Origin: Astropecten irregularis
Taxonomy: Eukaryota; Echinodermata; Asteroidea; Paxillosida; Astropectinidae
Assembly: GCA_963971285.1 (NCBI GenBank)
Contig: OZ020244.1
Span: 23,002,001-23,066,000, forward strand
DNA: 64,000 nucleotides
Reading direction: 5' to 3'
Positions 599 to 63,531 of this stretch are shown one piece after another; positions within the stretch are counted from its first letter, which is position 1; each line of letters starts with the position of its first letter. The notes beneath the pieces were generated by a model. It was given only the letters and a program-made list of their open reading frames with translations. It was not told the DNA's origin and did no database searches. The translations under genes and the position numbers were made by a program.

Positions 599-925
599 TT
601 AAAGGTACTATCATACTTTGGTAGAATACCGAAACACAGATCTTCACATATTTACCATATTTAACTGAAGATATGAAGATGGTGATGGTAGAAACAAACC
701 GTTAAAATGGTTCTGCCTGAAATGCTGTATTTATCCAGAAAAGAGTTAAACCAGTAACCGAAATTATTTTTGATCTTTTAAAGATCAAAAATAAAAGAGA
801 AAAGACTTAAGAAATACTGTGGCTGTTTTCACTGTTTTCTCAAAACGTGGGCACCGTATGGGACTGAAACTTTCACAGATGACTGTATCTTCCTTTATAT
901 TTGTGCCCATGAATCTGTATTTCTG
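599..925. mobile_element. TTAA element, omega-beta, right end lost
   Basis: Starts TTAAAGGTACTATCAT and runs through the omega arm (AAGATGGTGATGGTAG), the central GATCTTTTAAAGATC palindrome and the beta arm (GGGCACCGTATGGGACTG). It stops near 925, without the usual terminal repeat. There is no coding capacity. The 12 bases before its TTAA recur beside the element at 11753-12127. Confidence 0.8.
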
Positions 926-1668
926 CCTTTACTTACGTTCAATAAGGTTCACTCTGTTCCCTTTGTCTTATTTTATATGATGTGTATTATTGTATGATGT
1001 TATTTTCTGAGCTCAATGTCAGTTCAACTCTTTTCATTTGTATGTTTTCCTCGTTTTTGTGTTGGTTAATCGTGTTCTGTTGGTGATCTGTTTTAAATAA
1101 TAAATTGTTCCTCAGAAAAGTCAAAAGTCTTTTCTTTTCTTAACGCTTGTGTTTATGCATTATGACTTGATGAATTCTTTCTTTTAATTTGTACAAACCT
1201 TATTTAACAAATTCATGTACATTTGTACATTTTTTTTACAAGAATTGTAATAAAGTCTTCCCTTTGGAAAGTCTTTTTTTCCTCTTTTAAAGAAAAGAAC
1301 CACCCAACACATTCCCAGTGTGACATAAGTGTGACGTTGATGAGTACCCCCTGATCAGCACGCACGTGTTTTCTTCAATCCAAATGCACATGGCCTAATT
1401 CATTACGACACATCTACATGTATTACAAAGATAGTACGTGCACAAACTCAATTCATCCATCGCACACACACCAAGATCGTGTTTGCGATTCTTCCTCATG
1501 GGATAGATTCGTAGGAACTAGATCTATACATGACGACATCATCTTGAGTCAATGTTATGAAGGAGCAATGGACAATAAAAAGAACATATTTTGTAGTTGC
1601 ATGCAAGACAACATAGGCCTATCCACCTGCCTTAAAAAGACAATTTTCTATTGATGAAAACAAGAACA
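926..1668. other. AT-rich unique sequence
   Basis: T-rich to about 1300, then mixed. There is no gene, repeat family or splice pattern that I can support. Confidence 0.5.
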
Positions 1669-2165
1669 ATCAGAACGGAACAGAACAGAATGGAACGAAA
1701 TTGGACGGAATGGAGCGGAACGGAACGGAACGGTACGGGATGGAACGGTACGGAACGGAACAGAACGGTACGGAATTGAACGGAATGAAACGAAACGGAA
1801 CGGAACAGAATGGAAGGGAACGGTACGGAACGGTACGGAACGGAAGGGAACGGCACAGAACGGAACGGAACGGAACGGAATGGAACAGAATGGAACGGAA
1901 CGGAACGGAATGGAACAAAAGGGAACGGTACGAAACGAAATGGAACGGAACGGAACGGAATTGAACAAAAGGGAATGGTACGGAACGGTACGGAACGGAA
2001 TGGAGCGGAATGGAACGGAAGGGAGCGGAATGGAACAGACCGGAACGGTACAGAACGGAACGGTACGGAATGGAATTGAACGGAATGGAACGAAACGAAA
2101 CGGAACGGAACGAAACAGAATGGAACGGATTGGAACGCAACGCAACGGATTGGAATGATACGGAA
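1669..2165. repeat. GGAAC/GGAAT pentanucleotide satellite, about 495 bp
   Basis: A continuous array of 5-bp units, mainly GGAAC with GGAAT, GGTAC and GAAAC variants. The purine-rich strand is the plus strand. Because 5 is not a multiple of 3, long frames open on both strands and encode period-5 peptides; these are not genes. Confidence 0.95.
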
Positions 2166-2230
2166 CAGAACTAGACACGATGTAACATTTCGGCTTTATC
2201 AAACTATATCATTCACAGTTTTGAATATTT

Positions 2231-2243
2231 CTGTTGTTGTTCC

Positions 2244-2294
<51 letters not shown>

Positions 2295-2296
2295 CA
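2231..2296. repeat. (TGT)n microsatellite
   Basis: About 20 GTT units, nearly uninterrupted, beginning about 65 bases after the GGAAC satellite. In one frame they read as poly-valine inside a spurious ORF. Confidence 0.95.
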
Positions 2297-2594
2297 CAAC
2301 AGCTGCTTCTACTCCTGTTGTTAATTTTGTTGTTGTCTACTGTAATAATGTCAGACAATCTCATTAAACGTAGCCAATTAGTCTTTGATTAGGCAAGGTC
2401 TAATATTTTGTTTATAAGTCAATTCTATTTTTATAGCTCAAATGAAATCACATGTTCTGCCAGTGTTTAACAGAATCACGACAAGCGTATAAATCTTAGT
2501 ACAGTGGTCCTTCATTTTGTTATAGTTGACGTCTACCGTCCTTTAAAATGTAATTTACATAATTAGACAAACCCTTCATTGGCCCTCAGGCGAA

Positions 2595-4369: not shown

Positions 4370-4698
4370 TTAAAGGTACTATCATCATTATACTTGAATA
4401 AAGTTGCTAGAATAGCTGCAGTCTGTTCATAATTTGATTTGTCATGAAATAAAAACCTGTGAAATAAATTTTCAACTCAATTGATCATTGGAAACAGTAA
4501 AAAAAAAATTTTTGCAATTCTTGCCGAGGTATTTTGAGGCTTTGATATCGGAAATCAATTACAAATACAGCATTTCAGACAGGAACATGTTAACAGTATG
4601 TTTGTATCAGGTCCATCTGTGTACCCTGTCAGTTACAGGTAAATCTGCGAACATGTCAGTTATGGTTTCCTATACCAAAGTATGATTAGTACCTTTAA
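4370..4698. mobile_element. TTAA element, gamma-omega
   Basis: TTAA at both ends (4370 and 4695), with AGGTACTATCAT matching AGTACCT-type sequence in reverse at the other end. The left half contains AGCTGCAGTCTGTTCAT, shared with the copy at 62476-62836. The right half is the omega arm in diverged form. It lies 88 bases before another complete element. Confidence 0.8.
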
Positions 4699-4785
4699 GA
4701 GACCAACACACCAAGAAAGAAACTAATGCGAGCGACAGTTCCATGTTACAGCCCCATACACTGCCGATCAATGCACAGTCTTCAC

Positions 4786-5126
4786 TTAAAGGTATAATAC
4801 ATGATTGTTAAAGGTCACAGAGCAGCACTCACATTTTGTGTAATCCACTATGTGCATGGAGCCATGGAATGATAAACCTGTGAAAATGTGAGCTCAAAAG
4901 GATATCTGAGTCACGAGAAAATAGCGAAAACCCGACTAAATTTTTTTTATAAATCACAAAAAATGATTTTGATCTTACCCCGAGATCAACACTGTTTTCG
5001 GTCTTTGTTTGACTGACATTTTAACGATATGTTTCTACCAGCACCATCTTCATACCCTGACAGTTCTATGTAAATCTGTTAGCATTTCTGTTTGAGTATG
5101 TTACAAATCTTATAATGTGCCTTTAA
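4786..5126. mobile_element. TTAA element, alpha-omega
   Basis: TTAA at both ends. The alpha arm reads GGTCACAGAGCAGCACTC near the left end. GATCTTACCCCGAGATC forms the centre. The omega arm ends in a decayed terminal repeat (ATAATGTGCCTTTAA). Length 341 bp, no ORF of its own. Confidence 0.85.
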
Positions 5127-6792: not shown

Positions 6793-8290
6793 CTTAGTTG
6801 CTTTGCTTTGCCTTGCCTTGCCTTGCCTTGCCTTGCCTTGCCTTGCCTTGCCTTGCCTTGCCTTGCCTTGCCTTGGCTTGGCTTGGCTTGGCTTGCCTTG
6901 CATTGCCTTGCTTGGCTTGGCTTGGCTTGGCTTGGCTTGGCTTGGCTTGGCTTGGCTTGGCTTGGCTTGGCTTGCCTTGGCTTGGCTTGGCTTGCCTTGC
7001 CTCGCCTTGCCTTGCCTTGCCTTGCCTTGCCTTGCCTTGCCTTGCCTTGCCTTGCCTTGCCTTGCCTTGCCTTGCCTTGCCTTGCCTTGCCTTGCTTCGC
7101 CTTGCCTTGCCTCGCCTCGCCTTGCCTTGCCTTGTATTTCCTTGCCTTGCCTTGCCTTTCCTTGCCTTGCCTTTCCTTGCCTTGTATTTCCTTGCCTTGC
7201 CTTGCCTTGCCTTGCCTTGCCTTGCCTTGCCTTGCATTTCCTTGCCTTGCCTTGCCTTGCCTTGCCTTTCCTTGCCTTGCCTTGCCTTGCATTGTATTTC
7301 CTTGCCTTGCCTTGCCTTGCCTTGCCTTGGCTTGCCTTGCCTTGGCTTGGCTTGCCATGCCATGCCTTGCCTTGCCTTGCCTTGCCTTGGCTTGGCTTGC
7401 CATGCCATGCCATGCCTTGCCTTGCCATGCCTTGCCTTGGCTTGGCTTGGCTTGACTTGGCTTGCCTTGCCTTGCCTTGGCTTGCCTTGGCTTGGCTTGC
7501 CATGCCATGCCTTGCCTTGCCTTGCCTTGGCTTGGCTTGCCATGCCATGCCATGCCCTGCCTTGCCTTGGCTTGGCTTGGCTTGCCATGCCATGCCATGC
7601 CTTGCCTTGCCTTGCCTTGGCTTGGCTTGGCTTGGCTTGCCTTGCCATGCCATGCCTTGCCTTGGCTTGGCTTGCCTTGGCTTGCTTTGCCTTGGCATGC
7701 CTTGGCATGGCTTGGCTTGGCTTAGCTTGGCTTGGCTTGGCTTGGCTTGACTTGCCTTGCCTTGCCTTGCCTTGCCTTGCCTTGCCTTGCCTTGCCTTGC
7801 CTTGCCTTGCCTTGCCTTGCCTTGCCTTGCCTTGCCTTGCCTTGCCTTGCCTTGCCTTGCCTTGCCTCGCCTCGCCTTGCCTTGCCTTGTATTTCCTTGC
7901 CTTGCCTTGCCTTTCCTTGCCTTGCCTTGCCTTTCCTTGCCTTGTATTTCCTTGCCTTGCCTTGCCTTGCCTTGCCTTGCCTTGCCTTGCCTTGCCTTGC
8001 CTTGTATTTCCTTGCCTTGCCTTGCCTTGCCTTGCCTTTCCTTGCCTTGCCTTGCCTTGCCTTGCCTTGTATTTCCTTGCCTTGCCTTGCCTTGCCTTGC
8101 CTTCCATTGCCTTGCCTTGCCTTGCCTTGCCTTGCCTTGCCTTGCCTTGCCTTGTCTTGCCTTGCCTTGCCTTGCCTTGCCTTGCCTTGCCTTGCCTTGC
8201 CTTGCCTTGCCTTGCTTGCCTTGGTTTACATTGCCTTGCCGCGCCTTGCCGCGCCTTGGTTTACATTGACTTGCCTTTCTTTCCTTTGCT
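6793..8290. repeat. CCTTG pentanucleotide satellite, about 1.5 kb
   Basis: Units CCTTG, GCTTG/GGCTTG, CCATG, CCTCG and CCTTT, with a recurrent TATTTC interruption. Blocks of GGCTTG and CCATG variants alternate with pure CCTTG. The segment near 7110-7190 recurs almost unchanged near 7865-7950, indicating higher-order duplication. Open frames of up to 506 codons (Leu/Pro/Cys/Ala on plus, Ala/Arg/Gln/Gly/Lys on minus) are artefacts of the unit. Confidence 0.96.
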
Positions 8291-9206
8291 TTCCTTTGCT
8301 TTGGTTTATCCCATCTAAAACCTAATTGGATTTAACTGATAACCCGAACTGAGCCTTACAATTTTTATAAAACTATTTCAGGCGATCGTATAACCGTGAT
8401 TGAGCGCCCCTTAACAGAAGGTATAGATCCAGATAGATCCGTAGATCCGTATTAGATCCAGCTTTATCAACCATCTGCGTACCGTCCGGTAGTCTAATAC
8501 AATTTCATAACATCCATTCCAACGTCTCTAATTGAAAATGGGCTATTAACTTATTTATCGACTGCAATAGCAATGTTTTTTTGTATCTGTTTTCGTTGGT
8601 CGTCCGTGGACTCCGTAGTCCCTCACCCGTTGTCAAGGCCCATGCGGCATCATCACCCGCCGCGGTCCATTTATAGCGAACTTCGCCAATCAATTCGAAT
8701 TTGTTTAAGCAATCGCGGAGGTTCTTAGGGCTAAGTGACAATGATAGACTGCGCTGGTTTATGTATTTGAAGTATAATTATAAGGGAAAGAAAACCGGGA
8801 AAATGATGAGGTTTGGACTGGGGGTATGGGGTTCGTCGCAGGCGCAATTACAAGTCCACATTGTAACACGATACTACACTATGAACCCGTACATGACATG
8901 TCGCCAGAGGTTTTGAATTCGCATAAAAACAAATATACGAGAACAACTTGTAACAACTCGGATGAATTTCCCAAACATCCATCGGGCCGAGTTGGCAGTA
9001 TTATCGCTTTGGATTGAGTCGAAATCCTACTTTGCAATTCTGTACCCGAGAAGTAGAGAAGTAGCATTGATGAGGGTAGAAAAAACGAGGTCATATCGCA
9101 AGTTCTTGTGATAGTTAGACCAGTGCGAGAGACGGATGGTGATTACCCCTGTGGTATTTGTGAGTCAGATGCCTCCTTTATTTATGGAACTTATACTGAG
9201 TCTATG
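8291..9206. other. Unique sequence after the satellite
   Basis: Contains a short cluster of GATCC words (8428-8460) and several frames under 80 codons on both strands. None has a recognisable motif. Confidence 0.5.
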
Positions 9207-10568: not shown

Positions 10569-10936
10569 TTAAAGGGCATGTACAACATTGGTATAAAAAA
10601 AAACCCAGAATTGTTCACAGATTTACGTATAACTTTCACAGTATGAAGATGGTGCTGGTAGAAACATATCGTTACAGTTTTTTTCAGCCTGAAATGGTGT
10701 ATTTATCCAGAAAGATTAAAACCAAACACACAAAACATTTTTGATCTTGGCAAGATAAAAAACCCTTCTTTATGTTTTAAAAGAAACATTGAGTCGGGCT
10801 TTCGCCATTTTCTCAGGACTCAGATGTCCGATTGAGCTCAAATTTTCACAGGTTTATTATTCCATGTACATGCTGGATTAGACAAAATGCGAGTGATGTT
10901 CTCTTACCTTTACCAACGTTGTACACGCCTTTTTAA
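10569..10936. mobile_element. TTAA element, omega-alpha
   Basis: Full-length copy in the opposite orientation to that at 4786. It begins TTAAAGGGCATGTACAAC and ends CGCCTTTTTAA, both with terminal-repeat decay. The alpha half contains GACTCAGATGTCCGATTG. Confidence 0.8.
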
Positions 10937-11752: not shown

Positions 11753-12127
11753 TTAAAGGTAATATCATAGTTTGTTTTTTGTCAAAGAAATACAGATTCA
11801 TGGGCAAAAATATCGAAGAGGATATAATATAATATAATAATAGTCACCTGTGAAAATTTCAGTCCCATACGGTACCAACTTTTTGAGAAAACAGTGAAAA
11901 ACGGCCACAGTATTTCTGAAGTATTTTCTCTTTTATGTTTTATCTTTAAAAGATCAAAAATAATTTTGGCCACTGGTGTAACTCTTTTCCGGATAAATAC
12001 AGCATTTCAGGCAAAAATATTTTAACGGTATGTTTCTACCATCACCATCTTTATACCCTGTACGTTATAGGTAAATATGTGAAGATCTGTGTTTCTGTAT
12101 GCTACCAAAGTATGATAGTACCTTTAA
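11753..12127. mobile_element. TTAA element, beta-omega
   Basis: A 375-bp copy with TTAA at both ends. The beta half contains CAGATTCATGGGCAAAAAT and CAGTCCCATACGGTACC. The centre is ATCTTTAAAAGATC. The omega half ends AAGTATGATAGTACCTTTAA. A short ATAAT repeat has expanded near 11824-11842. Confidence 0.88.
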
Positions 12128-17165: not shown

Positions 17166-17246
17166 TTTAATGGTATAGTGTTGTTGCTAATCCTGTAGCC
17201 GTTGTCAGTGTTACTCCTGTTGCTGCTGTGTAAAAGAGAGAATTCT

Positions 17247-17609
17247 TTAAGGTACAATACAAGATTGGTAACACACCCAAACAGAAATGTTCACAGATTA
17301 ACGTATAACTTTCAGGGTATGAAGATGGTGCTGGTAGAAACATACCGTAACAAAATTTTCGCCCGAAATGGTGTGTTTATCCAGAATTTAGTAAAACAAA
17401 GACCGAAAACAGTTTTGATCTTAGGGGTAAGATCGAAACGATTCTTTATGTTTTATAAAAAAAAAAAATATGTTTTTTGCTATTTTCTCGCGACTCAGAT
17501 GTCCGATTGAGCTCCAATTTTCACAGGATTATCATTGATTCACATGCTGGATCAGGCAAAATATGGGTGCTGTTCAGTGACCCTTACCAATTATGTATTA
17601 TACCTTTAC
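17247..17609. mobile_element. TTAA element, omega-alpha
   Basis: Starts TTAAGGTACAATACAAG and ends TATTATACCTTTAC; the right TTAA is mutated to TTAC. The centre is GATCTTAGGGGTAAGATC. It follows the D-family element (16767-17165) by about 80 bases. Confidence 0.85.
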
Positions 17610-20988: not shown

Positions 20989-21300
20989 TTAAAGGTATAA
21001 TACATGATTGGTAAAGGTCACAGAACAGCACTCACACTTTGCCTGATCCAGCATAATGCATGACATGATAAACCTGCGAAAATTAATATGAGCTCAATCG
21101 AACATCTGAGTCTCGAAAAAATAGCAAAAAAACTGACTAAATTTTTCTTAACAAATATAAAGAATGGTTTTGATCTTACCCCGAGATCAAAACTGTTTTC
21201 GGTCTTTTTTTGACTCATTTCTGTATAAATACACCATTTCAGGCGTATTTTAAAGTATTTTAACGGTTATGTTTCTACCAGCACCATCTTCATATCCTAT
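20989..21300. mobile_element. TTAA element, alpha-omega, right end lost
   Basis: Starts TTAAAGGTATAATACATG, with an intact alpha arm, centre GATCTTACCCCGAGATC and most of omega. Similarity stops after CACCATCTTCATATCCTAT, so the terminal repeat is missing. Confidence 0.82.
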
Positions 21301-22467: not shown

Positions 22468-23308
22468 TGTCTATTCCATGTTCCATGTTCCATGTTTTAT
22501 GTTCCACATGTTCCATGGTTTATGTTTCACGTTCCATCCCATGTTTTATGTTCCATGTTCCATGTTCCGTGGTCCATATTACATGTTCTATGTTCAATGT
22601 TTCGTGTACCATGTTTTATGTTCCATGTTCCGTGTTGTTCCACGTTCCACGTTCCACGTTCCACGTTCCACGTTCCATGTTCCACGTTCCACGTTCCACG
22701 TTCCACGTTCCACGTTCCACGTTCCACGTTCCACGTTCCACGTTCCACGTTCCACGTTCCACGTTCCACGTTCCAAGTTCCATGTTCCAAGTTCCAAGTT
22801 CCAAGTTCCAAGTTCCATGTTCCATGTTCCATGTTCCATGTTTTATGTCCATATTTCATGTTCCAAGTTCCAAGTTCTATGATCCATGTTTTACGTCCAT
22901 GTTCCATTATCCATGTTGCATGTTGCATGTTGCATGTTGCATGTTGCATGTTGCATGTTGCATGTTGCATGTTGCATGTTGCATGTTGCATGTTGCATGT
23001 TGCATGTTGCATGTTTATGTTGCATGTTGCATGTTCCATGTTCCATAATCCATGTTGCATGTTCCATGTTGCATGTTACATGTTCAATGTTGCATGTTGC
23101 ATGTTGCATGTTGCATGTTGCATGTTGCATGTTGCAGGTTGCATGTTGCATGTTGCATGTTGCATGTTCAATGTTGCATGTTGCATGTTGCATGTTGCAT
23201 GTTGCATGTTGCATGTTCCATGTTCAATGTTCAATGTTGCATGTTGCATGTTGCATGTTGCATGTTCCATGTTCCATGTTCAATGTTCAATGTTCAATGT
23301 TCCATGAT
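22468..23308. repeat. GTTNCAN heptanucleotide satellite, about 840 bp, in variant blocks
   Basis: 7-bp units. About 22468-22636 is mixed GTTCCAT; 22637-22770 is nearly pure GTTCCAC; 22770-22880 is GTTCCAA/GTTCCAT; 22905-23010 is nearly pure GTTGCAT; 23010-23308 is GTTGCAT mixed with GTTCCAT and GTTCAAT. Homogeneous blocks indicate local turnover. Confidence 0.96.
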
Positions 23309-24696: not shown

Positions 24697-25100
24697 TCTG
24701 AAAGGGAGCATAATGATTTGCAAAGATGTGCGTTTTGACTGAATTTGGTACTTCAACAGAAGTGAAGGTCTTAAATTTTCTTACAGACCACGTTGTTTCA
24801 TGTACCTTTATACGCTTTGTTCATCTGGATAGCAGAAATACGGCCGAAATAATCTTGCCCCCCCCCCCTCCGAATCATTCAAGGTTACACCACGCTTTTG
24901 AAATGTTTAAAGATCGTTTGGAAGAGCGATCTCTTTAACAGACACTAAATTTTGATTTCCTTGAAAAAAAACAAGCATCTGATGAACCAAGAATTTCCAT
25001 GGTGCATGTTTACACTGTGTACGAACTGTTGAGTAAATTTTCTGTCTCAAACTCAAACATTTTTTTGGGAGGCCTTGCAAATTCTGTACGCTGCCTTTAA
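24697..25100. mobile_element. TTAA-related element with delta arm
   Basis: The left end AAAGGGAGCATAATGATTTG resembles the delta arm at 44884. The right half, read in reverse from TTAA at 25097, gives TTAAAGGCAGCGTACAG and TTTGCAAGGCCTCC. The centre has a GATCG-spacer-CGATC palindrome near 24913-24932. The left TTAA is lost. The two halves are not equally similar to the copy at 44884, so it may be a different arm combination. Confidence 0.55.
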
Positions 25101-25500
25101 GCAAATCCTGTATACAAGACTAGTACTAACTTAAAAAGAAGGCATGACATTATACGAACGGGAATATTTGGTTATCTAAGTGTGTGGCTATTATCCAAAA
25201 ACAACAATTCGTGTTTGTTGTTATACCTGCGATGTCGCATATTATAGGAGACATGAAACCCTTAAAGACTGAAAACGTGATATTTCGGGTAATGACGATC
25301 ATAATTGCTATAATTATCAGCAATTTGTGCGCGTTTGTTTGACTTAATCTCCTTGCTTCCTTTGTTGTTCGCTGTTTTTTTTTTCAAATCATTCATGGCT
25401 AAAAAACAAACCTGGTTTATCTTAAGGAATGGGAGATGAACCTTCGAACCTGAAAACTGCTTTTGAAAATGCGAGGCAGAATTCAGTGTATCCCTCCGCC

Positions 25501-25911
25501 TTAAAGGTAATATCATACTTTGGTTTTTGTCAAAGAAATACAGATTCATGGGCAAAAATATCAAGGAAGATACAGTAACAGTCATCTGTGAAAATTTCAG
25601 TCCCATACAGTGCACACTTTTTTTAGAAAACAGTGAAAAACGCCCACGGTATTTCTTAAGTCTTTTCTCTTTTATCTTTGATCTTTTGATCAAAGATAAA
25701 ACGGCTATAACTTTGGCTTTCCTCAAAGAATTCCATCCTAGGCCCTTTCTTTCCTTCCCCACAGTCCTTCGCCGGGTTGTTTTTGGCCGTCCAACCCCCC
25801 TTCTACCTTCAGGTGCCCAGGTAAGGGCTGTTACACAGTAACCATGTAAATTAGGTAAAACTGTGCAGAGATTTGTTTCGGTATGCTACCGAAGTATGAT
25901 ACTACCTTTAT
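25501..25911. mobile_element. TTAA element, beta half with replaced interior
   Basis: Starts TTAAAGGTAATATCATAC. The beta half is well preserved as far as the central palindrome (TTTGATCTTTTGATCAAA). The expected omega sequence is then replaced from about 25700 to 25850 by an unrelated C/T-rich segment. Only the outermost omega end (ATGCTACCGAAGTATGATAC, then TACCTTTA) returns at 25885-25910. Confidence 0.75.
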
Positions 25912-26780: not shown

Positions 26781-28198
26781 ATGCCTATTGCAGCAAATAT
26801 GACCCAATTGCATTCACAGCGATGAGACAAGAAGAACCTATGGGCGGTGTTCTCGTCAAAATCCATGGAGAATGTCAAAACCTGACAACAAAAACAGTTG
26901 CGCAATGTATTTTGGCTCACGTACCACATGCAGACTGATAAATCTTCAAATGAAAAGAAAAATAGGTAAAAACCTGACATTGCGTGTGCCAATGTTCTGT
27001 ATATGACAAGGCCTTTAGCAATGATTCCCCACGGAAAACAACAGAGAGGGAAAGATGATTTGAAATTGAAATATCGTAGCCGGTGTGCAATGATTAACGC
27101 AACACTGGCAACTACCGATCGGCGACCGTGCAGCACCTGTGCGTTACAGTGGAAACAAAGTGATTTACAATTCATGATTTCTCCTCCCCAGGCGCTCGAC
27201 CGTCAGTCTCAAATCGAGATAGAATCAGTTTGAAATTCGATAAATATCACCCGATTCAAGAAGAGAAAAATGTCAACGAAGATTTACAGGTCACAAGAAA
27301 AAAATGGTGATTTAAAGGTATAATACATGATTGGTAAAGGTCACAGAACAGCACTCACACTTTGCCTGATCAAACATGTACATGAAATAATAAACCTGTG
27401 AAAATTTGAGCTCAATCAGACATAGGCCTATGAGTTTCGAGAAAATTGCGAGAACCCGACTCAATTGTTTCTATTAAACATAAATAATGGTTTTGATCTT
27501 ACCCCGAGATCAAAACTGTTTTCGGTCTTTGTTTGACTTATTTCTGAAGAAATACAGCATTTGGCAGGCGGAAATATTTGAACGGTATGTTTCTACCAGC
27601 ACCATCTTCATACCCTGAAAGTTATACGTAAATCTGTGAACATTTCTGTTTGGGTATGTTTAATACCAATCTGTACGATACCTTTAAGTAGTTCTTCCCT
27701 GTAGATTGTAGATAGCAATAGTGGATGTTGGACCAAGTGGACAAGAATGAAAGATGAAAGATGACAGATGAAACGCGAAATACGGACGAGTGGGGAAAAT
27801 TAGGGAATGATTGGTGCAAGGGGGGAGATTAAAATGCTTCAATAATGCCAATCAAATCCAGAAATCCTTGGTACTCTCATGAATGAATGAGACTTGAAAT
27901 GTGTTTGCCTTGACGTTCGTGCGTCAGCATTATACATCTCCACAGCCTGCGATGGATTAAGTCTAGCTATATCCTGATGTTGTTGATTTCATTATTCAAG
28001 ACGTATGCGTTTCAATGTTTATGGACGTCCTCACGTCATACTTGTGTTTCATAAGCTTTATAGTATACGTGTATAGGTATACAGCTTCTGCTCATTGGGT
28101 AATGGAAATGAGACCGTGTGTACGTCTTGAACTCCTTCCACACTTTCACTCCTGATGCTGTCACTTACGATTCAATTTGTGTTCTTGCTTTTTAACAG
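26781..28198. other. Intergenic or intronic region upstream of the receptor
   Basis: Contains the alpha-omega element at 27312-27687. The rest is unique. If the acceptor at 28198 is real, this is the end of the receptor's leader intron. Confidence 0.45.
27312..27687. mobile_element. TTAA element, alpha-omega, well preserved
   Basis: A 376-bp copy with TTAA at both ends, a good reference for the alpha-omega type. It has GGTCACAGAACAGCACTC, centre GATCTTACCCCGAGATC, then CACCATCTTCATACCCTG and the closing TACCTTTAA. It lies about 500 bases upstream of the receptor leader exon. Confidence 0.9.
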
Positions 28199-28883: not shown

Positions 28884-28887
28884 ATGA
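28666..28887 (+). CDS. Upstream ORF overlapping the receptor start (ATGA)
   Basis: An ATG at 28666 opens a 73-codon frame that closes with TGA at 28885-28887. That stop shares two bases with the receptor ATG at 28884. The peptide is not recognised and has no evident membrane segment or motif. In eukaryotic mRNAs an upstream ORF of this kind usually lowers translation of the main frame, and an ATGA junction can permit re-initiation. Whether this one is translated is an inference. It may also be partly removed if the acceptor near 28664 is used. Confidence 0.3.
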   Translation: MLCALNETRDAVCAICPDVGRLIVNRHTRLNPALNLHASPLSSRVILPAEEMIRNCARFPVLVTMRVSANFSL

Positions 28888-30476
28888 GTTTTCTAACAAC
28901 TGACATTTATAATGCAACGGCACCAGAAATTGTCAACCCAACGTCGTCTCCGGCCCCTGATGGGAGCCACGCGGTAGATTTCAGGAGCATTGTGTTGATT
29001 TCATCTGCAGTCATATTGGTGTTATCGGTGTTTAGCGGTATCCTGGGCAATGTTCTTGTCTGCGTGAGCGTGTACAGCAACCGGTCTCTACGTAATGCCA
29101 ACAACGCCTTACTGGTCAACCTTGCCGTGGCCGACCTAGTTGTCTGTTTCACCAGCATACCCTTCATGCTCGCCGAGGTTTCTAACATTTACGGCGGTGA
29201 GCCGTGCCCGTCTTTCGGTGACATTGTCTGCCCCGTCCAGACCTTCTTCCACGTCGCCAGCAGCTCCGTGCAGCTTACCACACTGGTGGCGGTCAGTCTG
29301 GAGCGGTACGAGGCTATTGTCCGCCCCTTCGAGACCAAGAAGAAGCGCCGTCGAGTGGTCATCGGTACCACGGTCTCCTGGCTTCTGGCTCTGACAATTG
29401 CCACACCGGCTGCTGTGGTGTTCAAGGGATCATCGCTGTACCTTCTATGCACCTGCCAACTGGACGCCGAACCTGTCGATTACGTTCACACAGCCATCAT
29501 AGCGCCTCTTGGTTTTGCGTGCTTGTTTTGCGTTGTAGTCTTCTACCTGAGAATATTCCGAACGGTGCGCAAACACGTCAAGGATAAGCACAAAGGGAGG
29601 AAAGAAACTGCTCCCTTGACGAGTACCACGAGAAAGACTTTACGTGATGCGTGTAGATCACTGAATTGTTGCCGGACAAACGTCGTAGGCATAGCACCTG
29701 TAGACCTTGTGCTACCTAACGAAGGAACTGTTCCGCCCGTCCAAAGCATCGGCGACAAACCGTCTGGGAGTGGGGTCCGTAGTTTACGACAACATGATGG
29801 GAACAGTGGAATGATCGAAGGCAATGGGGCAGAGACCAATGTCGGGGGATCACTCGCACCAAAGCACCGCGGTGACGGTACCGCTTGGACTTCAGTCGAG
29901 GAACCGGCCGGTCGAAGCATCACCCCCGATACGGGGGTGGGATCATCTGGGATACCCCAAGAACAGAACGACCGGGAGCAAAGTGGTATCGAAAGACAAA
30001 TGCTTGACACGGAAGGCCTGCAACCCGGAGGGTTGCTCGTGGCCGTGATACCGGCTACCCCTACCAGCTTCAGTCGGGCTGACGAGACTGATGGCTTGAC
30101 GCCGGCAACGAGTACCCTCAAGGAGTCCAGCAGACCGGCGGATGGAATCCAGCGGAGCACCAATGACGACATCCAAGGCTCCGTGTGCGTCTTGAACCCC
30201 GCGATGAGAGTCCGCGGACGGAGGAACTTGGAAGCCAAGACGGCCAAGAGAGCCTCCTACATCATCGGCGTCTTCAGTCTGTGTTGGCTGCCGCTCTTCG
30301 TAGTCTCTTATCTGGACACCAGCATCGAGGTGAACATCTTGGTGACGTGCGTAGCGGCTATGAGTGCCTCTCTTAATCCCATTGTCTATACAGTGGTCAA
30401 CAAGTCCTTTCGGACAGAATTTGTCAAAGCCTTACGCAAGCTGACCATCTGCTGTCCCGGAAAGTGCAAGAGATAA
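28884..30476 (+). CDS. Rhodopsin-family (class A) G-protein-coupled receptor, intronless coding region
   Basis: Seen: 530 codons in one exon. The ATG is the first in frame after a TAA 12 bases upstream. Helix 1 (about 35-62) has GN at 55-56. Helix 2 has LAVADL with D84. Helix 3 starts at C116 and ends with E140-R141-Y142 (the DRY position). Helix 4 has W166. Loop 2 offers C189 or C191 as partner for C116. Helix 5 has P208, helix 6 has CWLP (467-470), helix 7 has NPIVY (498-502). Helix 8 follows, then a CC pair that may be palmitoylated. N10-A-T is a possible glycosylation site. Family knowledge: plasma-membrane receptor acting through heterotrimeric G proteins. Loop 3 (about 228-454) is unusually long and polar, as in amine receptors, but position 3.32 is H123 rather than Asp, so a classical amine ligand is not supported. 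Loop 2 carries a KKKRRR cluster. Ligand unknown; subfamily not assigned. The coding region is visibly more GC-rich than its flanks. Confidence 0.95.
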   Translation: MSFLTTDIYNATAPEIVNPTSSPAPDGSHAVDFRSIVLISSAVILVLSVFSGILGNVLVCVSVYSNRSLRNANNALLVNLAVADLVVCFTSIPFMLAEVSNIYGGEPCPSFGDIVCPVQTFFHVASSSVQLTTLVAVSLERYEAIVRPFETKKKRRRVVIGTTVSWLLALTIATPAAVVFKGSSLYLLCTCQLDAEPVDYVHTAIIAPLGFACLFCVVVFYLRIFRTVRKHVKDKHKGRKETAPLTSTTRKTLRDACRSLNCCRTNVVGIAPVDLVLPNEGTVPPVQSIGDKPSGSGVRSLRQHDGNSGMIEGNGAETNVGGSLAPKHRGDGTAWTSVEEPAGRSITPDTGVGSSGIPQEQNDREQSGIERQMLDTEGLQPGGLLVAVIPATPTSFSRADETDGLTPATSTLKESSRPADGIQRSTNDDIQGSVCVLNPAMRVRGRRNLEAKTAKRASYIIGVFSLCWLPLFVVSYLDTSIEVNILVTCVAAMSASLNPIVYTVVNKSFRTEFVKALRKLTICCPGKCKR

Positions 30477-36432: not shown

Positions 36433-36612
36433 TTAAAGGTATATTACATGATCGGTAAAGGTCACAGAACAGAACTCACACTTTGTCTGATCAAACATGT
36501 ACATGAAATAATAAACCTGTGAAAATTTGAGCTCAATCGGACATCTGAGTCACAAGAAAATAGAGAAAACCCAACCCAATTTTCTTATAAAACATAAAGA
36601 ATGGTTTTGATC
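36433..36612. mobile_element. Isolated alpha half of a TTAA element
   Basis: Begins TTAAAGGTATATTACATG and follows the alpha arm exactly as far as the central GATCT, where a second complete element starts at a TTAA. The matching omega half is absent from the far side of the neighbour, so this is a true half and not a simple nested insertion. Confidence 0.8.
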
Positions 36613-36952
36613 TTAAAGGTACAATACATGATTGGTAAAGGTCACGGGACTGCACTCACACTTTGCCTGATCAAACATGTACATGACATTATAAGCCTGT
36701 GGAAATTTGAGCTCAGTCGGACATCTGAGTCACAAGAAAAACCCAACTCAATTTTTCTTACAAAACGTAAAGAATGGTTTTGAACTTGCCCCGAGATCAA
36801 AACTGTTTTCGGTCTTTGTTTTACTCATGGATAAGTACACTATTTCAGGCAAAAATATTATAACAGTATGTTTCTACCAGCACCATCTTCATACCATGAA
36901 TCTGTGAACATTTCTGTTTGGGTATGTTACCAATCCTGTACTGTACCTTTAA
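36613..36952. mobile_element. TTAA element, alpha-omega, middle of a three-element cluster
   Basis: TTAA at both ends; starts TTAAAGGTACAATACATG and ends CTGTACTGTACCTTTAA. It has two small internal deletions, one in each arm. Its right TTAA is also the left TTAA of the next element. Confidence 0.87.
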
Positions 36953-37310
36953 AGTTAATTTCATTATCAAAGAAATGCAGATTCGTGGACAAAAATATAA
37001 ACAAGATACAGTAGTAGTCATATGTGAAATCCCCAGCCCCATACGGCGCTCACTTTTTTGAGAAAAAAAGTGAAAAATCTCCACGGTATCTAAAAAATCT
37101 GTTCACAGGATTTTTGATATTCCGAAGATCAAAATTGTTTTTGGTCAATTGGTTTTACTCTTTTCTAAACTCTGGATAAAAACAGCATATCAGGCAGACA
37201 TTGTTTAACGGTATGTTTCTATCATCACCATCTTTATACCCTGTAAGTTATAGGTAAATCTGTGGAGATTTCTATTTTGGTGTAATACCAAATTATGATG
37301 GTACCTTTAA
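36949..37310. mobile_element. TTAA element, beta-omega, sharing a TTAA with its neighbour
   Basis: The beta arm begins at the shared TTAA (36949-36952) with a mutated terminal repeat. The centre is ATTCCGAAGATC. The omega arm ends ATGATGGTACCTTTAA at 37310. It contains an insertion of about 20 bases (CTGTTCACAGGATTTTTG) before the centre that also occurs in the copy at 63178. Confidence 0.82.
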
Positions 37311-39605: not shown

Positions 39606-39943
39606 TTAAAGGTAATTGGTTTTTGTCTAAGAAACACAGATTCATGGGCAAAAATATCAAGGAAGATACAGTAACAGTGATATTCTCAGTTCCCACTTTG
39701 GGAGAAAACAGTGAAAAATTGCCACAGTATTTCTCAAGTCTTTTCTCTTTTCTTTTCGATCTTTTAAAAGATCAAAAAGATTTTCGGTCCTTGTCTTACT
39801 AATTTCTGGATAAATACATCATTCCAGGCGGAAAAATTGTAACGGTATGTTTCTACCACCACCACCATATTCATACCGTATAAGTTATACGTAAATTTGT
39901 GAAGATTTCTGTTTCGGTATGCTACCAACGTATGATACTACCT
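39606..39943. mobile_element. TTAA element, beta-omega
   Basis: Starts TTAAAGGTAATTGG, with the beta arm, centre GATCTTTTAAAAGATC and the omega arm. The right end is decayed (ATGATACTACCTGTCG), with no TTAA. Confidence 0.82.
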
Positions 39944-40849: not shown

Positions 40850-41166
40850 TGACTCGAATGTGTACATGAAATAATAAAGCTGTAAATTTTTTTTAGCACA
40901 ATCGGACGTCTGAGTCACGAGAAAACAGCAAAAACTCGATTCTTTTTTTCTTTTAAAACATAAAGAATGGTAGTTTGATCTTACACCGAGATAAAAACTG
41001 TTTTCGTCCTTTGTTTTACTAATGTCTGGATAAATACAGCATTTCAGGCAGAAATATTTTAACGGTATGTTTCTACCAGCACCATCTTCATACCCTGAAA
41101 AATATACGTATAAATCTGTGAACATTTCTGTTTGGGTATGTTACCAATCCTGTACTGTACCTTTAA
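40850..41166. mobile_element. TTAA element, alpha-omega, left end lost
   Basis: Recognisable from TGTACATGAAATAATAAA onward. It keeps the alpha arm, a centre GATCTTACACCGAGAT and a complete omega arm ending CTGTACTGTACCTTTAA at 41166. The outer roughly 60 bases of alpha are missing. Confidence 0.8.
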
Positions 41167-41544: not shown

Positions 41545-41838
41545 TTAAAGGTAGTATCATACTTTAGTTTTTGTCAAAGAAGTACAGATTCATGGGTAAA
41601 AATATCAAGAAAAACGGCCGCAGTATTTCTTAAGTCTTTTCTCTTTTATTTGTTATCTTTTAAAAGACCAAAAAGATTTTTCGGTCGTTGTTTTACTAAT
41701 TTCTGGATAAATACACCATTTCAGGCGGAAATATTTTAACGGTAGGTTTCTACCATCACCATCATCTTCATACCCTGTAAGTTATACGTAAATCTGTGAA
41801 CAATTCTTTGGTTTCTTACCAAAGTATGATACTACGTT
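41545..41838. mobile_element. TTAA element, beta-omega with internal deletion
   Basis: Starts TTAAAGGTAGTATCAT. The beta arm has lost about 70 bases between AAAATATCAAG and AAAACGGCCGC. The omega arm is complete but the end is mutated (ACTACGTTTCA). It abuts a D-family fragment. Confidence 0.8.
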
Positions 41839-41909
41839 TCATTATACATTAAGCAATAATTTTAAAATACTTTCATCTCTTTCTCAAATTTGGATTACAG
41901 TGAACCTTT
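41838..41909. mobile_element. D-family fragment
   Basis: Only about 70 bases of one end remain, from ATTAAGCAATAATTTTAAA to GGATTACAGTGAACC. It starts exactly where the beta-omega element at 41545 ends. Confidence 0.55.
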
Positions 41910-42260: not shown

Positions 42261-42625
42261 TTAAAGGTAGTATCATACTTTGGTAAGAAACCAAAACAGA
42301 AATGTTCACAGATTTACGTATAACTTTAAGGGTATGAAGATGGTGCTGGTAGAAACCTACCATTACATTTTTCCGCCTGAAATGGTGTATTAATCCAGAC
42401 ATGAGTAAAACAACGACCGAAAAGCTTTTTGATTCTTTTAAAAGATCACAAATAAAAGAGAAAATACTTACGAAATACTGTGGCAATTTTTCATGTTTTT
42501 CTCAAAAAGTGGGCACCGTATGGGACTGAAATTTTCACAGATGACTGTGACTGTATCTTCCTTGATATTTGTGCCCATGAATCTGTACTTCTTTGATAAA
42601 AACCAAAGTATGATACTACCTTTAA
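42261..42625. mobile_element. TTAA element, omega-beta, well preserved
   Basis: A 365-bp copy with TTAA at both ends and near-perfect terminal repeats: TTAAAGGTAGTATCATAC at the left and its complement at the right. It is the best reference for the beta-omega type. Confidence 0.9.
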
Positions 42626-42872: not shown

Positions 42873-43228
42873 GTATACAGATTTGGTAATACATCCAAAC
42901 AGAAATGTTCACAAATTTACCTGTAACTTTCAGGGTATGATGATGGTGATGGTAAAAACATAAAGTTAAAATATTTCCGCATGAAATGGTGTATTTATCC
43001 AGAAATTATACAAACAAAGACCGAAAACAGTTTTGATCTTGGGGTAAGATCAAAAACGTTCTTAATGTTTTATAAGAACATTTGAATAGGCTTTTAGATA
43101 TTTTCTCGTGACTCAGATGTCCGATTGATCTCAAATTTTCACAGGTTTATAATGTCATGCACATGCTTGATCAGACAACGTGTGAGTGCAGTTCTGTGAC
43201 CTTTACCAATCATGTATTATACCTTTAA
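42873..43228. mobile_element. TTAA element, omega-alpha
   Basis: The left end is eroded (ATACAGATTTGGTAATAC). The omega arm, centre GATCTTGGGGTAAGATC and alpha arm follow. It ends CATGTATTATACCTTTAA. The candidate promoter at 43284 begins about 55 bases later. Confidence 0.82.
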
Positions 43229-43810: not shown

Positions 43811-43820
43811 TATTGAGGAG

Positions 43821-44883: not shown

Positions 44884-45265
44884 TTTAAAGGGAGCATACA
44901 TGATTTGCAAGGCATCAAAACAAAATATTGAGTATGAGACAGAAAATGGACTCAACAGTTCGTAAACAGTGCAAACAGTCACCATGGGAAATCTTTGTTC
45001 ACCAGATGCTGGGTTTTTTAAGGAAATCAGGATTTAGTGTCTTTTCCGAAGATCGTTCGTCCGAACGATTTTTGGAACAAACATAAAGTAAACTATTCTT
45101 CATGTTTTACAAGAAAAATTGAGTCGGTTTTTCGCTATTTTCTCGTGACTCAGATGTCCGATTGAGCTCAATTTTTCACAGGTTTATTATTTCATGTACA
45201 TGTTTGATCAGACAAAGTACGAGTGCTGTCCTGTAACCTTTACCAATCATGTATTATACCTTTAA
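44884..45265. mobile_element. Chimeric TTAA element, delta-alpha
   Basis: TTAA at both ends and normal length (382 bp), but the left half is delta (AAAGGGAGCATACATG) and the right half is alpha (GACTCAGATGTCCGATTG, closing TATTATACCTTTAA). Neither half is omega. The join lies at a GATCGTTCG-CGAACGAT palindrome near 45052-45070. Confidence 0.78.
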
Positions 45266-48452: not shown

Positions 48453-48641
48453 TTAATAGGTACAGTACTGGATTGGTAACATACCAAAACAAAAATGTTA
48501 ATAGATTCACGTATAATTTTCAAGGCATGAAGATGGTGCTGGTCGAAACATACATTTAAATATTTTCGCCTGAAATTGTGTATTTATCAAGAAATTAGTC
48601 AAACAAAGTGCGAAAACAGTTTTGATGTCAGGGTAAGATAG
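48453..48641. mobile_element. Isolated omega half of a TTAA element
   Basis: Begins TTAATAGGTACAGTACTG and follows the omega arm (GAAGATGGTGCTGGTCG) up to the central AGGGTAAGATAGG. There it changes directly into a 44-bp tandem array. No alpha or beta half follows. Confidence 0.78.
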
Positions 48642-48966
48642 GTCTTGTGTTGCACACCATTGCACGCAACCAGAAAGTGTCACAGATGTACGTGTCGCCC
48701 ACCACTGCACGCAACCAGAAAGTGCCAAAGGTCTTGTGTCTCCCACCATTGCACGATACCTAAAAGTGTCAAAGGTCTTGTGTCGCCATTGCATGCAATA
48801 AGAGAGTGTCAAAGATCTTGTGTGACCCACCATTGCACGCAACCAGAAAGTGCCAAAGGTCTTGTGTCGCCCACCATTGCACGCTACCAGAATATGTCAA
48901 AGGTCTTGAATTCGAGTCGCCTACCATTGCACGCAACCAGAAACTGCAGGAAGTGTCAAAAATCAT
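48641..48966. repeat. Tandem array of about 44 bp, seven copies
   Basis: Each unit reads roughly GGTCTTGTGTCGCCCACC, ATTGCACGCAACCAG, AAAGTGCCAAA. One copy is shortened by about 4 bases and the last carries a small insertion. It begins precisely at the broken centre of an omega half-element. Open frames across it on both strands (about 65-111 codons) are repeat-driven. Confidence 0.92.
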
Positions 48967-53204: not shown

Positions 53205-53518
53205 TTAAAGGTGTAATACATGAGTGGTAAAGGTCGCAGAACAACACTCACACTTTGTCTAATCCAGAATGTACATGAAATAACACATGTGTGAAAATGT
53301 GACCTCAATCGGACATCTGAGTCACGAGAAAATAGCAAAAAAAAAACTTTTTCTTTCTTATAAAACATAAAGAGTGTTTTTGATCTCGCCAAGACGTGAA
53401 TAATTTGCTTTACACACACAAATATAGTATTTCAGGCTTAAAATATTTTAGCAGGGAGTTTCTATCATGTCCATCTTCATACCCTGAAAGATAAATTTGT
53501 GAATCTGTTACCAATAAT
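53205..53518. mobile_element. TTAA element, alpha-omega, right end eroded
   Basis: Starts TTAAAGGTGTAATACATG. The alpha arm is good, the centre is reduced to GATCTCGCCAAGACGTG, and the omega arm is diverged, ending near CTGTTACCAATAATC without a terminal TTAA. Confidence 0.78.
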
Positions 53519-57510: not shown

Positions 57511-57513
57511 GTG

Positions 57514-59159: not shown

Positions 59160-59522
59160 TTAGGTTACAGGATTGGTAACTTACCCAAACAGAAATGTTC
59201 ACAGATTTACATATAACTTTCAGGAAATGAAGATGGCGCTGGCAGAAACATACCGTTAAAATAATTCCACCTGAAATGGTGTTTTTATCCGAAAATGATT
59301 AGTAAAACAAAGACCCAAAACAGTTTTGATCTCGGGGTAAGATCAAAACCATTCTTTATGTTTTATAAGAAATGTTTGAGTCGGGTTTTTGCTATTTTCT
59401 CGTGACTCAAATGTCCGATTGAGCTCAAATTTTCACAGATGTGTTATTTTATGTACATGTTGGATTAGACAAAGTGTGGGTTATATCCTGTGACCATTAC
59501 CAATTATGTATTATACATTTAC
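59160..59522. mobile_element. TTAA element, omega-alpha, both TTAA mutated
   Basis: The left end is AGGTTACAGGATTGGTAAC and the right end is TGTATTATACATTTAC. The interior is full length, with centre GATCTCGGGGTAAGATC and the alpha arm. Confidence 0.82.
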
Positions 59523-60095: not shown

Positions 60096-60097
60096 TT

Positions 60098-60405
60098 ACT
60101 TAAGAAAAAAATACAGTAGCAGTCATCTGTGAAATTTCCAGTCTCATAAGGTGCCCACTTTTGGAGAAAATAGTGAAAAACGCCCGCAGTATAAAACATC
60201 TTTTCACCATTATTTTTAATCTTTAAAAGATCAAAATCGTTTTTAGCCATTTGCTTCACTCTTTTCTGGATAAGTACAGTATTTCAGACAGAAACTAATT
60301 AATTATATGTTTCTACATACATCGCCATCTTTATACCCTGTAACGGTAAATCTGTGAAGATTTCTGTTTCGGCATGCTACCAAATAATGATACATGGTAC
60401 CTTTG
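60098..60405. mobile_element. TTAA element, beta-omega, left end lost
   Basis: Begins inside the beta arm (ATACAGTAGCAGTCATCTG) directly after the GTAACATGTTGCC-family element. It keeps the centre ATCTTTAAAAGATC and the omega arm, and ends GGTACCTTTGAG. Confidence 0.78.
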
Positions 60406-60732: not shown

Positions 60733-60835
60733 AGCTGACTGAATAAATTTTAACTCATTGAAAAGTAAACAAATACAAAATGACTGGAGCGAGATTCGAA
60801 CCAGCGACCCCGGAATCCTTCACCGGTACAGTCAA
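60733..60835 (-). mobile_element. tRNA-derived SINE fragment, same family
   Basis: The minus strand has GGTTCGAATCTCGCTCC followed by AGTCATTTTG and TTACTTTTCAATGAGTT. It is truncated on the tRNA side after GGTGAAGGATTCCGGGG. Confidence 0.58.
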
Positions 60836-61618
60836 TTATCTTTGAATAGTCGTTCACAGATTGTGAGTTGTCACTTAATTCCGATATGAGCTATAAAAAT
60901 TGCCATGTTTAATACAGTGAGGCAAGTCAAGCTACACATTCAGATAGGTGATTATACACGTAACACATCATTATCCATGACGTCATGATCCTGTCATCAC
61001 CATTGATGCTGAATATGTATAAGCTAGCGAAGCTAGCAAGGAAGGGGGAGGGGTTCATGTCTCTACAACTTCAGAGTTGTCACATTTCACACAAGTTTAC
61101 AGTTTCATCTTAAGCGATGCCCCCAAGGGCATTACAACATAAAATACACAGACCAGAGGTTTCCACACGCACACACAGCGGGGAGCTAGCACAACTCCCC
61201 CCGGACTGACCCGTGCTCTACGGCTCGCAACCAGATGGAGAATTTTCTCCCCGGTCTTTCGAGTATATTTTCTTCCCCTCCCCATATCACCGAAGCTCTT
61301 GCTCCGTGCGTCGCAGAAAAAAACTACCGAGGCAAACCGCGTAGCTAACCCGCGTGGCTCGCTCGATCAATCGCCGGCTTCTCAACTCCCAGGAGTGTCG
61401 GCCGGCTCGTAATCTCGAATACATATTCCACGGGTGGCTGGTCCAAAGTGTCGTAGATGGATTTTTAATGAAGGTAGGTAGCCCCACCACTCTCTTTGGT
61501 GTCCGTTCGCCTTGAGCAAGTGCCGCTGTGTAGTAGTACCGTTCAATTTCCCCGCGTGATGTGCGCTATTATAGTGTAACCCTGGCGTGACGTGGTACTG
61601 CATTGCACAGTCACACTC
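60836..61618. other. Region upstream of the 61.6-kb first-exon candidate
   Basis: AT-rich to about 61160, then GC-rich. Contains GTGACGT near 61586 and a weak TATTATAG at 61568. Possible promoter. Confidence 0.35.
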
Positions 61619-61882
61619 AGTCAGTTCACAGGGCTCCAGTCAACTTCTACTCTTCAAGGTAGTTCGGTAGATGAGAGCTGCATAGCTGGTGGCTCGTCCG
61701 TCTCTCAAGACCAACAAACAAACCTCCGTTCCCCACATTACAGCTCGACATTCTGAGGACGAACAAGCAAGCAAGTATCTGTGACAGACTCGGAGTCTCC
61801 GACTGCCTTCCCCGATACTGACTGAGCCAACTACGGGTGGAGGAGTGCGTGCTCACCCCTTCACATCACCGGCCCGGACCCG
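61619..61882 (+). other. Candidate non-coding first exon with GTAAGT donor
   Basis: A GC-rich block differs sharply from its AT-rich surroundings. TCAGT at 61617-61621 matches the initiator consensus, and CCCG|GTAAGT at 61879-61888 is a strong splice donor. The interval contains only a very short ATG frame (near 61670), so it reads best as a 5' UTR exon of a plus-strand gene whose coding exons lie beyond the donor, probably outside the window. GC-rich sequence extends upstream to about 61160 and may be promoter. Confidence 0.4.
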
Positions 61883-62475
61883 GTAAGTACAAGACAGTCC
61901 TCGTACCATATCTGATGGTCGTAATCAAGATTTCCTCTTCGCATCTTCGTTATCTCTTGCATTTTTTTGTCTTTGGGTTTTTGCATATAGTTATTTTCAG
62001 GTGGGTGCAATGCCGCACAGATTTATCAAATTCAGGCATGCTAGAAGATCTGCTAAAGAAGAAGAAGACATTTTTATCTAACTGCATAAATTTAGTCAGT
62101 TTCCTTTCACTTCACTGTTGCTATAGGCCTGCCGTAATCTAAAGGAATGAAATTATCTTTTGAATTTCCATTGAAACAATTTTAAACTAAAAGTCAATTT
62201 GTATAATCATTAAATATAATGGTCTCTATAATTATGCTGCATTGAAGTTTTCTTTAACATCAAACTAAAGGAAAATCCACAAGTGATTACTGATTTTAAA
62301 ATTGCACTTCCGATCATATCCAGAGTCCTCTTTGTTAGAATGAAGGTTATTTCAAAGTTGATGTTTCATACAATGTGGTCGTTGGAAGTGGTAAGAGATT
62401 TCAAAGACACAGTAATCTCCAAGACCTGATGGAGTTTAAAAACTTTCACTCTACAATTTATACCAACTTTGATGG
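61883..62475. other. Possible first intron
   Basis: AT-rich sequence after the GTAAGT donor. No acceptor plus coding exon is recognised before the window ends. Confidence 0.35.
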
Positions 62476-62836
62476 TCAAAAGGTACTATCATACTTTGGT
62501 AAAGTTGATAGAACAGCTGCGGTCTGTTCATAATTTTAGATTTGTCATGAAATAAAAACAAACCTTTGAAATATTCGGCTCAATTGGAAACAGTATGAAA
62601 CAACGAAAAACCGTTGCAATTGTTACGCGAAATTGTAAGTTATGGTAATTGTGAGGTTTTGAGCTCGGAGATCAAAACAGTTTTCGGTCTTTTGTTTTAC
62701 TCATTTCGGGAAAAATATAACATTTCAGGCGGAACAATTTTAACGGTAAGCTTGTACCATGTCCATCTTAAAGTTATAGGAAAATCTGTGAACATGGCTG
62801 TTTTGGTTTCCTACCAAAATATGATAGTACCTTTAA
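62476..62836. mobile_element. TTAA element, gamma-omega
   Basis: The left TTAA is mutated (TCAA), then AAGGTACTATCATAC. The gamma arm contains GATAGAACAGCTGC and GTCTGTTCATAATTT. The omega arm ends ATGATAGTACCTTTAA. It is the second gamma copy and, with 4370-4698, defines the type. Confidence 0.82.
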
Positions 62837-63177
62837 AGAAATTCAACAATATGAACATAGAAATAATTATGATGTCAAGTTAAAGAACCATATACCCCTT
62901 GAAAAATCCACAATGTCAAGTTTTATTGCACTGTCTGTCTTTTGAAGACCTTAACAACGGTTGTCACGAGTCATTTCGACCGAAGAAAAATTTAACAAAG
63001 CTTATTTCGTTTGACAGTATACAGAAAAAACATCAATCCGCAACACAGTCATGTCAGAAAGTTTTATATGCCGTGGTGTTCATGTAGCAGGAGAATTGAA
63101 CTCAAAGTTGCAAACAAAGCGAACACTGGCAAAAAGAGAGCTATTTCATATCTAGATCAAACGGTAACAAACTGAAT

Positions 63178-63531
63178 TTAAAGGTAATTTCATACTTTGG
63201 TTTTTGACAAAGAAATACAGATTCCGTATGGGCAACAATATCAAGAAAGATACAGAAACAGTCATCCGTGAAATTCCCAGTCCCATACGGTGCCCACTTT
63301 TTGAGAAAACAGTAAAAAAAAAAACTCCAACTGCACTCTTTTCACAGGATTTTTGATCTTTCGAAGATCAAAATTGTTTTTGGTCAATTGGCTTTATTAT
63401 TTTCTGGATAAGTACAGTATTTCAGACAAAACAATTTTAACAGTATGTTAGTACCACATCGCCATCTTTATACCCTCTAAGTTATTGGTAAATCTGTGAA
63501 GATTTCCGTTTCGGTATGATACTACCTTTAA
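63178..63531. mobile_element. TTAA element, beta-omega
   Basis: TTAA at both ends. It shares with the copy at 36949 the extra TTTTCACAGGATTTTTG before the centre, so these two form a sub-lineage. Centre GATCTTTCGAAGATC. Confidence 0.86.

Follow-up and report, generated by a model that had tools for sequence, protein, structure and literature searches.

Short TTAA-flanked repeats in the genome of Astropecten irregularis (Echinodermata, Asteroidea) are built of two arms that meet head to head at a central palindrome, and it is likely that they constitute one family, with a left arm X and a right arm omega, in which a half has on rare occasions been exchanged with that of another family and the new combination has then been amplified. 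The evidence comes from a 64-kb stretch (the window; assembly GCA_963971285.1, contig OZ020244.1, positions 23,002,001 to 23,066,000) of a 475.7-Mb genome in 168 contigs, from 14 chosen 10-kb stretches (204 kb in all with the window), and from genome searches and probes, each of which scored 40 places; rare or decayed elements could escape these. The left arm X occurs as alpha, beta and gamma, and there are two further arms, delta and epsilon. Half exchange is supported in three lineages, namely a delta arm joined to an alpha arm, a beta arm that occurs with either of two omegas, and a gamma-like arm paired with an alpha-type omega. A first-pass annotation of the window had proposed repeated half-swapping at the central hairpin; exchange is supported, but as a few rare founder events, and repeated free swapping is not supported.

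The elements are like miniature inverted-repeat transposable elements (MITEs): they are short, putatively non-coding, have inverted ends and occur in high copy number. The consensuses of seven subfamilies, each built from 11 to 21 copies drawn from the best matches of a window or locus copy, and so not at random, are 364-391 bp long, and for the seven queries nearly all of the 40 scored places per query (the query included) are full length. The arm catalogue gives 23 head-to-head two-armed elements with named arms in the window, and a delta-epsilon element brings the two-armed total to 24; with two lone halves (36433-36615 and 48453-48626) this agrees with the roughly 26 elements counted at first pass, and so does the meeting of the arms at a central GATC palindrome. 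The motif TTAAAGG occurs 40 times on both strands of the window where 13.2 are expected, a number reached in 0 of 100 shuffles. Ends of this type had been ascribed to all elements and are found in most, several window copies being truncated so that the ends are not intact everywhere. The 14 sampled stretches hold 15 of the 38 tallied pairs, about one per 9 kb, which extrapolates to the rough figure of 50,000 copies genome-wide, and the density in the window is about three times that of the sampled stretches.

The delta-alpha element at 44884-45265 (plus strand), recognized already at first pass, is supported by sequence comparison as an amplified chimera of delta-epsilon and alpha-omega halves. 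It is full length at all of its 40 scored places, of which the window copy is one; the remaining places are 92-94% identical to that copy, and the copies lie 2.6% from their own consensus, the least of the seven subfamilies. Beyond the terminal repeat, the delta arm agrees with that of delta-epsilon in 157 of 160 columns and the alpha arm with that of alpha-omega in 169 of 176. All 11 copies read have the same joint, point changes aside, and nine of the 11 have TTAA at both ends. The delta palindrome is longer in the chimera, by TTCCAAA at one flank and by TTTGGAA at the opposite one, and the joint falls at its far end; on the alpha side, AAACATAAAG faces CTTCATGTTT. In the window copy this junction occupies 45033-45087 and consists of the palindrome with its lengthened arms and, after it, an inverted repeat formed with alpha's inner end. 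Fold-back copying at a hairpin would be expected to produce both features. As single-stranded DNA, delta-alpha folds mildly better than shuffled sequences (z -2.16; 3 of 100 as good).

Delta-epsilon is a separate family of the same two-armed build and the likely source of the chimera's delta arm. It had gone unlisted at first pass and was seen in the window at 24699-25101 (minus strand; epsilon with a delta-type terminal repeat, the degraded far end placed by eye) and at 4455-4895 of locus L009, and it is nearly full length at all 40 scored places (query included). A reciprocal exchange yielding both delta-alpha and epsilon-omega was considered and dropped, since none of 40 scored places spans the epsilon-omega probe.

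Chimeras could also be produced by ordinary deletion between nearby elements, a lucky product being amplified afterwards, and copies do abut and nest. A lone alpha half (36433-36615, plus strand) that stops in the central palindrome adjoins an alpha-omega element (36613-36952, plus strand) of the same orientation, and at 8480-9132 of locus L011 several omega and beta arms are nested or adjoining, a possible deletion source of odd arm pairs. In addition, one omega-omega element was met (1 of 40 scored probe places), and its arms are nearest to different omega types; this single copy speaks for half exchange as well. However, deletion should place joints anywhere, whereas those of delta-alpha, of beta with omega and of the gamma-like arm with omega lie, by eye, at or next to the palindrome, and simple deletion would not make the inverted repeats at the delta-alpha joint. 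We regard this origin as rather unlikely.

The second lineage concerns the beta arm, which is found with two omega lineages, represented by the genome-search queries BO1 (a young beta-omega element, 42261-42625, minus strand) and BO2 (11753-12127, plus strand). Their consensuses differ at 4 of 144 left-arm positions and at 20 of 134 omega positions. Between BO1 and the alpha-omega consensus AO (reference copy 27312-27687, plus strand) the differences are 68 of 141 in the left arm and 8 of 134 in omega, and between AO and the gamma-omega consensus GO (query 62476-62836, plus strand) they are 51 of 140 and 12 of 134. Therefore the omega of BO1 is closer to that of AO than to that of BO2 while the left arms say the opposite, and this holds in 500 of 500 bootstraps of copies. 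For seven BO1-type copies, of which six lie in the window or the sampled stretches, the young copy at 42261 among them, and one at locus L004, the consensus compared with BO2 shows 0 of 144 differences in beta and 17 of 134 in omega (Fisher 2.3e-6), and the net divergence is 0.000 in the left arm (p 0.53) and 0.088 in omega (p 0.0005). Compared with 11 older beta copies of the catalogue, the net omega divergence of the BO1-type copies is 0.069 (p 0.0005). Moreover, when seven beta halves were chosen for beta alone, three had an omega of BO2 type and three an omega of BO1 type, the remaining one having only 28 bases of BO1-like omega.

Type 1 omega is probably the acquired type in beta elements, because the seven beta copies at a distance of 16-29% from BO2 beta have an omega mainly of type 2, several type 1 sites occurring in two of them. 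Single copies add to the case for exchange: of 56 beta rows, in which two copies are entered twice, two have an omega that changes type towards its outer end. The mosaic at locus L079 switches cleanly; that in the window at 39606-39943 (plus strand), with inner sites mostly of type 1 and the outer five diagnostic sites of type 2, has one contrary inner site. Some other beta rows contain patches of one to three sites of the other omega type.

In the third lineage, a gamma-like arm stands with an alpha-type omega at locus L126, which was chosen by omega alone. Its omega differs from AO at 4 of 134 positions and from GO at 16 of 134. In pairwise alignment the left arm of this locus agrees with gamma by 86% (110 columns) and with alpha by 64% (114 columns), the innermost part being unaligned, and in an added-sequence alignment the same arm fits every consensus poorly (41% different from gamma and from alpha). 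A search with this element gave 40 of 40 scored places (itself included) nearly full length, and the 39 others are 87-91% identical to it.

Alpha, beta and gamma, taken at first pass to be unrelated, are, to judge from their alignments, diverged collinear versions of one arm. Beta and gamma copies are hit by an alpha profile in matching register (best E 1.3e-4; best shuffled 0.0095). Local alignment of the consensus sequences gives z 8.3 for alpha-beta, and the values for alpha-gamma and beta-gamma are z 18.6 and z 5.2; in each of the three comparisons, 0 of 1000 dinucleotide shuffles scored as high. The three arms align collinearly at equal distance from the end, the alpha-beta match being confined to positions 85-157. 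It follows that much of the apparent mixture of cassettes is one old X-omega family with a diverged X arm. Delta, epsilon and omega show no clear kinship to alpha, beta and gamma or to one another when consensuses are compared with shuffles; the nearest cross-arm scores came from one gamma-omega comparison, whose score was reached by 1 of 1000 shuffles, and from beta compared with omega on the opposite strand (reached by 4 and 6 of 1000). Delta as a diverged omega, and epsilon as a relative of omega or alpha, were accordingly dropped, their similarity not being clearly above that of shuffles.

Pairing of the arms is likewise restricted. In a catalogue without epsilon, 37 of the 38 pairs found in the window and the 14 stretches combine omega with a non-omega arm, and random re-pairing gave a mean of 18.7 exceptions and a minimum of 7 in 10,000 trials where 1 was observed, so the halves are not the freely exchangeable cassettes first supposed. 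A later tally of the same stretches that knows epsilon counts 19 beta, 14 alpha and 2 gamma elements with omega, and three exceptions in 38 (one delta-alpha and two delta-epsilon). The omega tree, too, sorts by partner arm, with 3 label changes as opposed to 42.4 in shuffles, so that swaps look like rare founder events.

The homology and collinearity of alpha, beta and gamma, the sorting of omega by partner, the nearly constant pairing of omega with X and the acceptance of a single beta clade in the topology test reported below would all suit an account without any swapping, in which omega is constrained, X drifts fast and the subfamilies are ordinary descendants of one X-omega family. However, the left arm barely changes between BO1 and BO2 while omega differs, and the opposite is true of AO and BO1, so no single rate ratio fits. 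Moreover, the halves decay about alike after insertion, mean pairwise identity being 0.867 in omega and 0.833 in alpha for 16 alpha-omega elements and 0.809 in omega and 0.825 in beta for 17 beta-omega elements, which argues against a simple cause in mutation rate. Descent of this kind also cannot yield delta-alpha, delta showing no relation to omega, and we consider it improbable. The usual view of MITE origin, by which each arm pair would come from its own full-length autonomous transposon and the MITEs would be internal deletions of several related parents, has little probability here, because such parents would themselves need common halves, delta, alpha and beta each occurring in two pairings at 96-100% consensus identity, and none was found in a thin search (107 THAP-domain matches in the genome, 4 loci read).

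Half exchange with subsequent amplification has several points against it, and the transposase parent that it, too, lacks among the THAP loci read is one of them. In the approximately unbiased (AU) test, the beta-omegas as one clade were not rejected (p 0.445), and an earlier, smaller omega tree gave p 0.513 for one beta clade and 0.566 for one alpha clade; the case for exchange is built on sequence distances and diagnostic sites, not on topology. Fully congruent histories of the two halves had been named at first pass as incompatible with swapping; distances and diagnostic sites conflict strongly, and the AU test leaves one beta clade acceptable. The distances of the two halves correlate weakly in both of the families compared (Mantel r 0.29, p 0.097, and r 0.25, p 0.087), and the case makes no use of this correlation. 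In the beta lineage, the BO1-type copies were grouped by omega, so their omega difference is partly circular, as the identity of their beta arms is not; L004, which supplies one of the seven, is a selected locus, and from the 11 older beta copies the left arms are also slightly apart (net 0.013, p 0.021). AO and AOb show no significant omega excess (5 of 143 left-arm and 11 of 134 omega differences; p 0.12). The gamma-like arm with an alpha-type omega has been read in one copy. Finally, no alpha-beta and no epsilon-omega elements were present among 40 scored probe places each, and the idea that alpha-beta elements are common was given up on this count.

At the two ends of a consensus, 13-20 of the 20 bases compared agree, with 0-3 differences within a subfamily and 7 in delta-alpha. 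The two terminal repeats change together. AO and its sister AOb (window copy 10569-10936, minus strand, with a different terminal-repeat pair) differ at 8 positions in the left end and 6 in the right where their left arms differ at 5 of 143, and the delta-side end of delta-alpha is the epsilon-side end of delta-epsilon, with 3 differences from the delta-side end of the latter. The first-pass observation that the terminal repeats vary in their internal bases with the type of arm holds good, and omega's end repeat follows its partner arm. Delta-alpha was amplified with mismatched ends, so the mismatch did not stop amplification. The central palindrome is kept though its letters change, as compared by eye in AO (GTTTTGATCT/AGATCAAAAC), AOb (ATTTTTGATCTT/AAGATCAAAAAT), BO1 (TTTTTGATCTTTT/AAAAGATCAAAAA) and GO (GTTTTGATCTC/GAGATCAAAAC).

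By their ends the elements resemble Kolobok-type MITEs. The Kolobok superfamily is defined by a TTAA target and purine-purine terminal bases (PMC6004289, in the part available), and 14 of 14 consensus ends read TTAA followed by AGG, partly by construction, the consensuses having been trimmed at TTAAAGG. The T2-MITEs of Xenopus described in the same part of that source are alike in the TTAA target, the non-coding interior, the purine-start ends (AGG here) and the several subfamilies per genome. However, their motif AGGRR is found in 2 of the 14 ends (the delta side of delta-alpha and the epsilon side of delta-epsilon), the other 12 reading AGGTA, AGGGC or AGGCA, which places them outside the T2-MITEs, and no Kolobok transposase is tied to the elements here. 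The four THAP loci read (L100, L101, L102 and L103) contain two repeat families, with copies 98-99% alike, and the one boundary seen of each is not TTAAAGG. Membership of the piggyBac-type TTAA MITEs, whose ends begin CC[C/T]T next to TTAA (PMC2872659, in the part available), was rejected, the ends here beginning with AGG.

The nearest precedent found for a common interior with different ends is the CMITEs of Acropora corals, which, in the available part of PMC2872659, are TTAA MITEs with a shared conserved interior and terminal repeats differing by family, one copy carrying the interior type of another family. They are unlike the present elements in being about 100 bp long and piggyBac-like, and in that their families have the interior in common, where here it is a single half as far as the palindrome; in that part of the text the authors do not settle how the CMITEs arose. 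The available part of PMC6004289 contains no description of half exchange in T2-MITEs. Among the titles and abstract openings listed, in which subscription literature is little covered, there was likewise none for animal MITEs. The TIMEs, which are bacterial and belong to the Tn3 family, reportedly (going by the title of PMC4133298) generate mosaic non-autonomous Tn3-type transposons as inverted-repeat miniature elements. Modular short interspersed nuclear elements (SINEs) are small elements whose parts recombine and which then amplify, the exchange there probably taking place during reverse transcription; unlike these, the elements here are DNA elements with inverted ends.

These observations could be accommodated as follows. 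One ancient, two-armed, TTAA-inserting MITE family with left arm X, right arm omega and a central palindrome would have diverged in its X arm into alpha, beta and gamma, whose homology is seen in the alignments, and in an occasional copy one half would have been lost and then restored from a different family. In omega the exchange probably came about through ectopic gene conversion, or through gap repair with a dispersed copy as template; this fits because the families still match in omega, and the exchange would be bounded inward near the palindrome, where the arms cease to match. Delta-alpha has a non-homologous joint at the palindromes, made probably by a template switch through the hairpin; template switching during gap repair, as suggested at first pass, fits the position of this joint, the mechanism being one that we infer. 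The new combinations would then have multiplied by means of a transposase supplied elsewhere. More tentatively, the whole MITE superfamily may evolve by shuffling half-elements, with the palindrome as recombination joint, omega spreading by conversion and terminal repeats replaced together, so that new pairings could change the transposase to which an element answers; we put this forward as a possibility somewhat short of an even chance.

The remaining copies of the window belong to the same arm types. Alpha-omega elements lie at 4786-5126 (plus, omega in pieces), 17246-17608 (minus), 20989-21298 (plus, outer omega missing), 40861-41166 (plus, outer alpha missing), 42876-43228 (minus), 53205-53508 (plus, old) and 59166-59521 (minus). 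Beta-omega elements are found at 599-963 (minus, with a BO2-like omega; beta is called to 924 and the far end is set from typical length only), 25501-25910 (plus, altered middle), 32460-32819 (minus, old, omega mostly of type 2) and 41545-41839 (plus, internal deletion in beta), and further old ones at 36964-37310, 60108-60404 and 63178-63531 (all plus). A degraded gamma-omega copy occupies 4370-4698 (plus). The lone omega half at 48453-48626 (plus) is followed directly by an unrelated tandem array of a 44-base unit (48640-48943), and other long arrays are located at 1673-2171 (10-base unit), 6798-8277 (5-base unit), 22474-23306 (7-base unit) and 31056-31320 (20-base unit). An open frame of a rhodopsin-type receptor (28884-30473; Pfam 7tm_1, E 1.9e-42) lies between elements.

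Trees of deletion derivatives are the usual picture of MITE families. In the family described here, the two halves of an element can differ in their histories, and amplified families have arisen from recombinants; half trading is an uncommon but not unheard-of evolutionary route for such elements. If this holds generally, classifying repeats by the similarity of whole elements gives a false account of descent. The joint replacement of terminal repeats could allow a MITE to persist after its transposase is lost.

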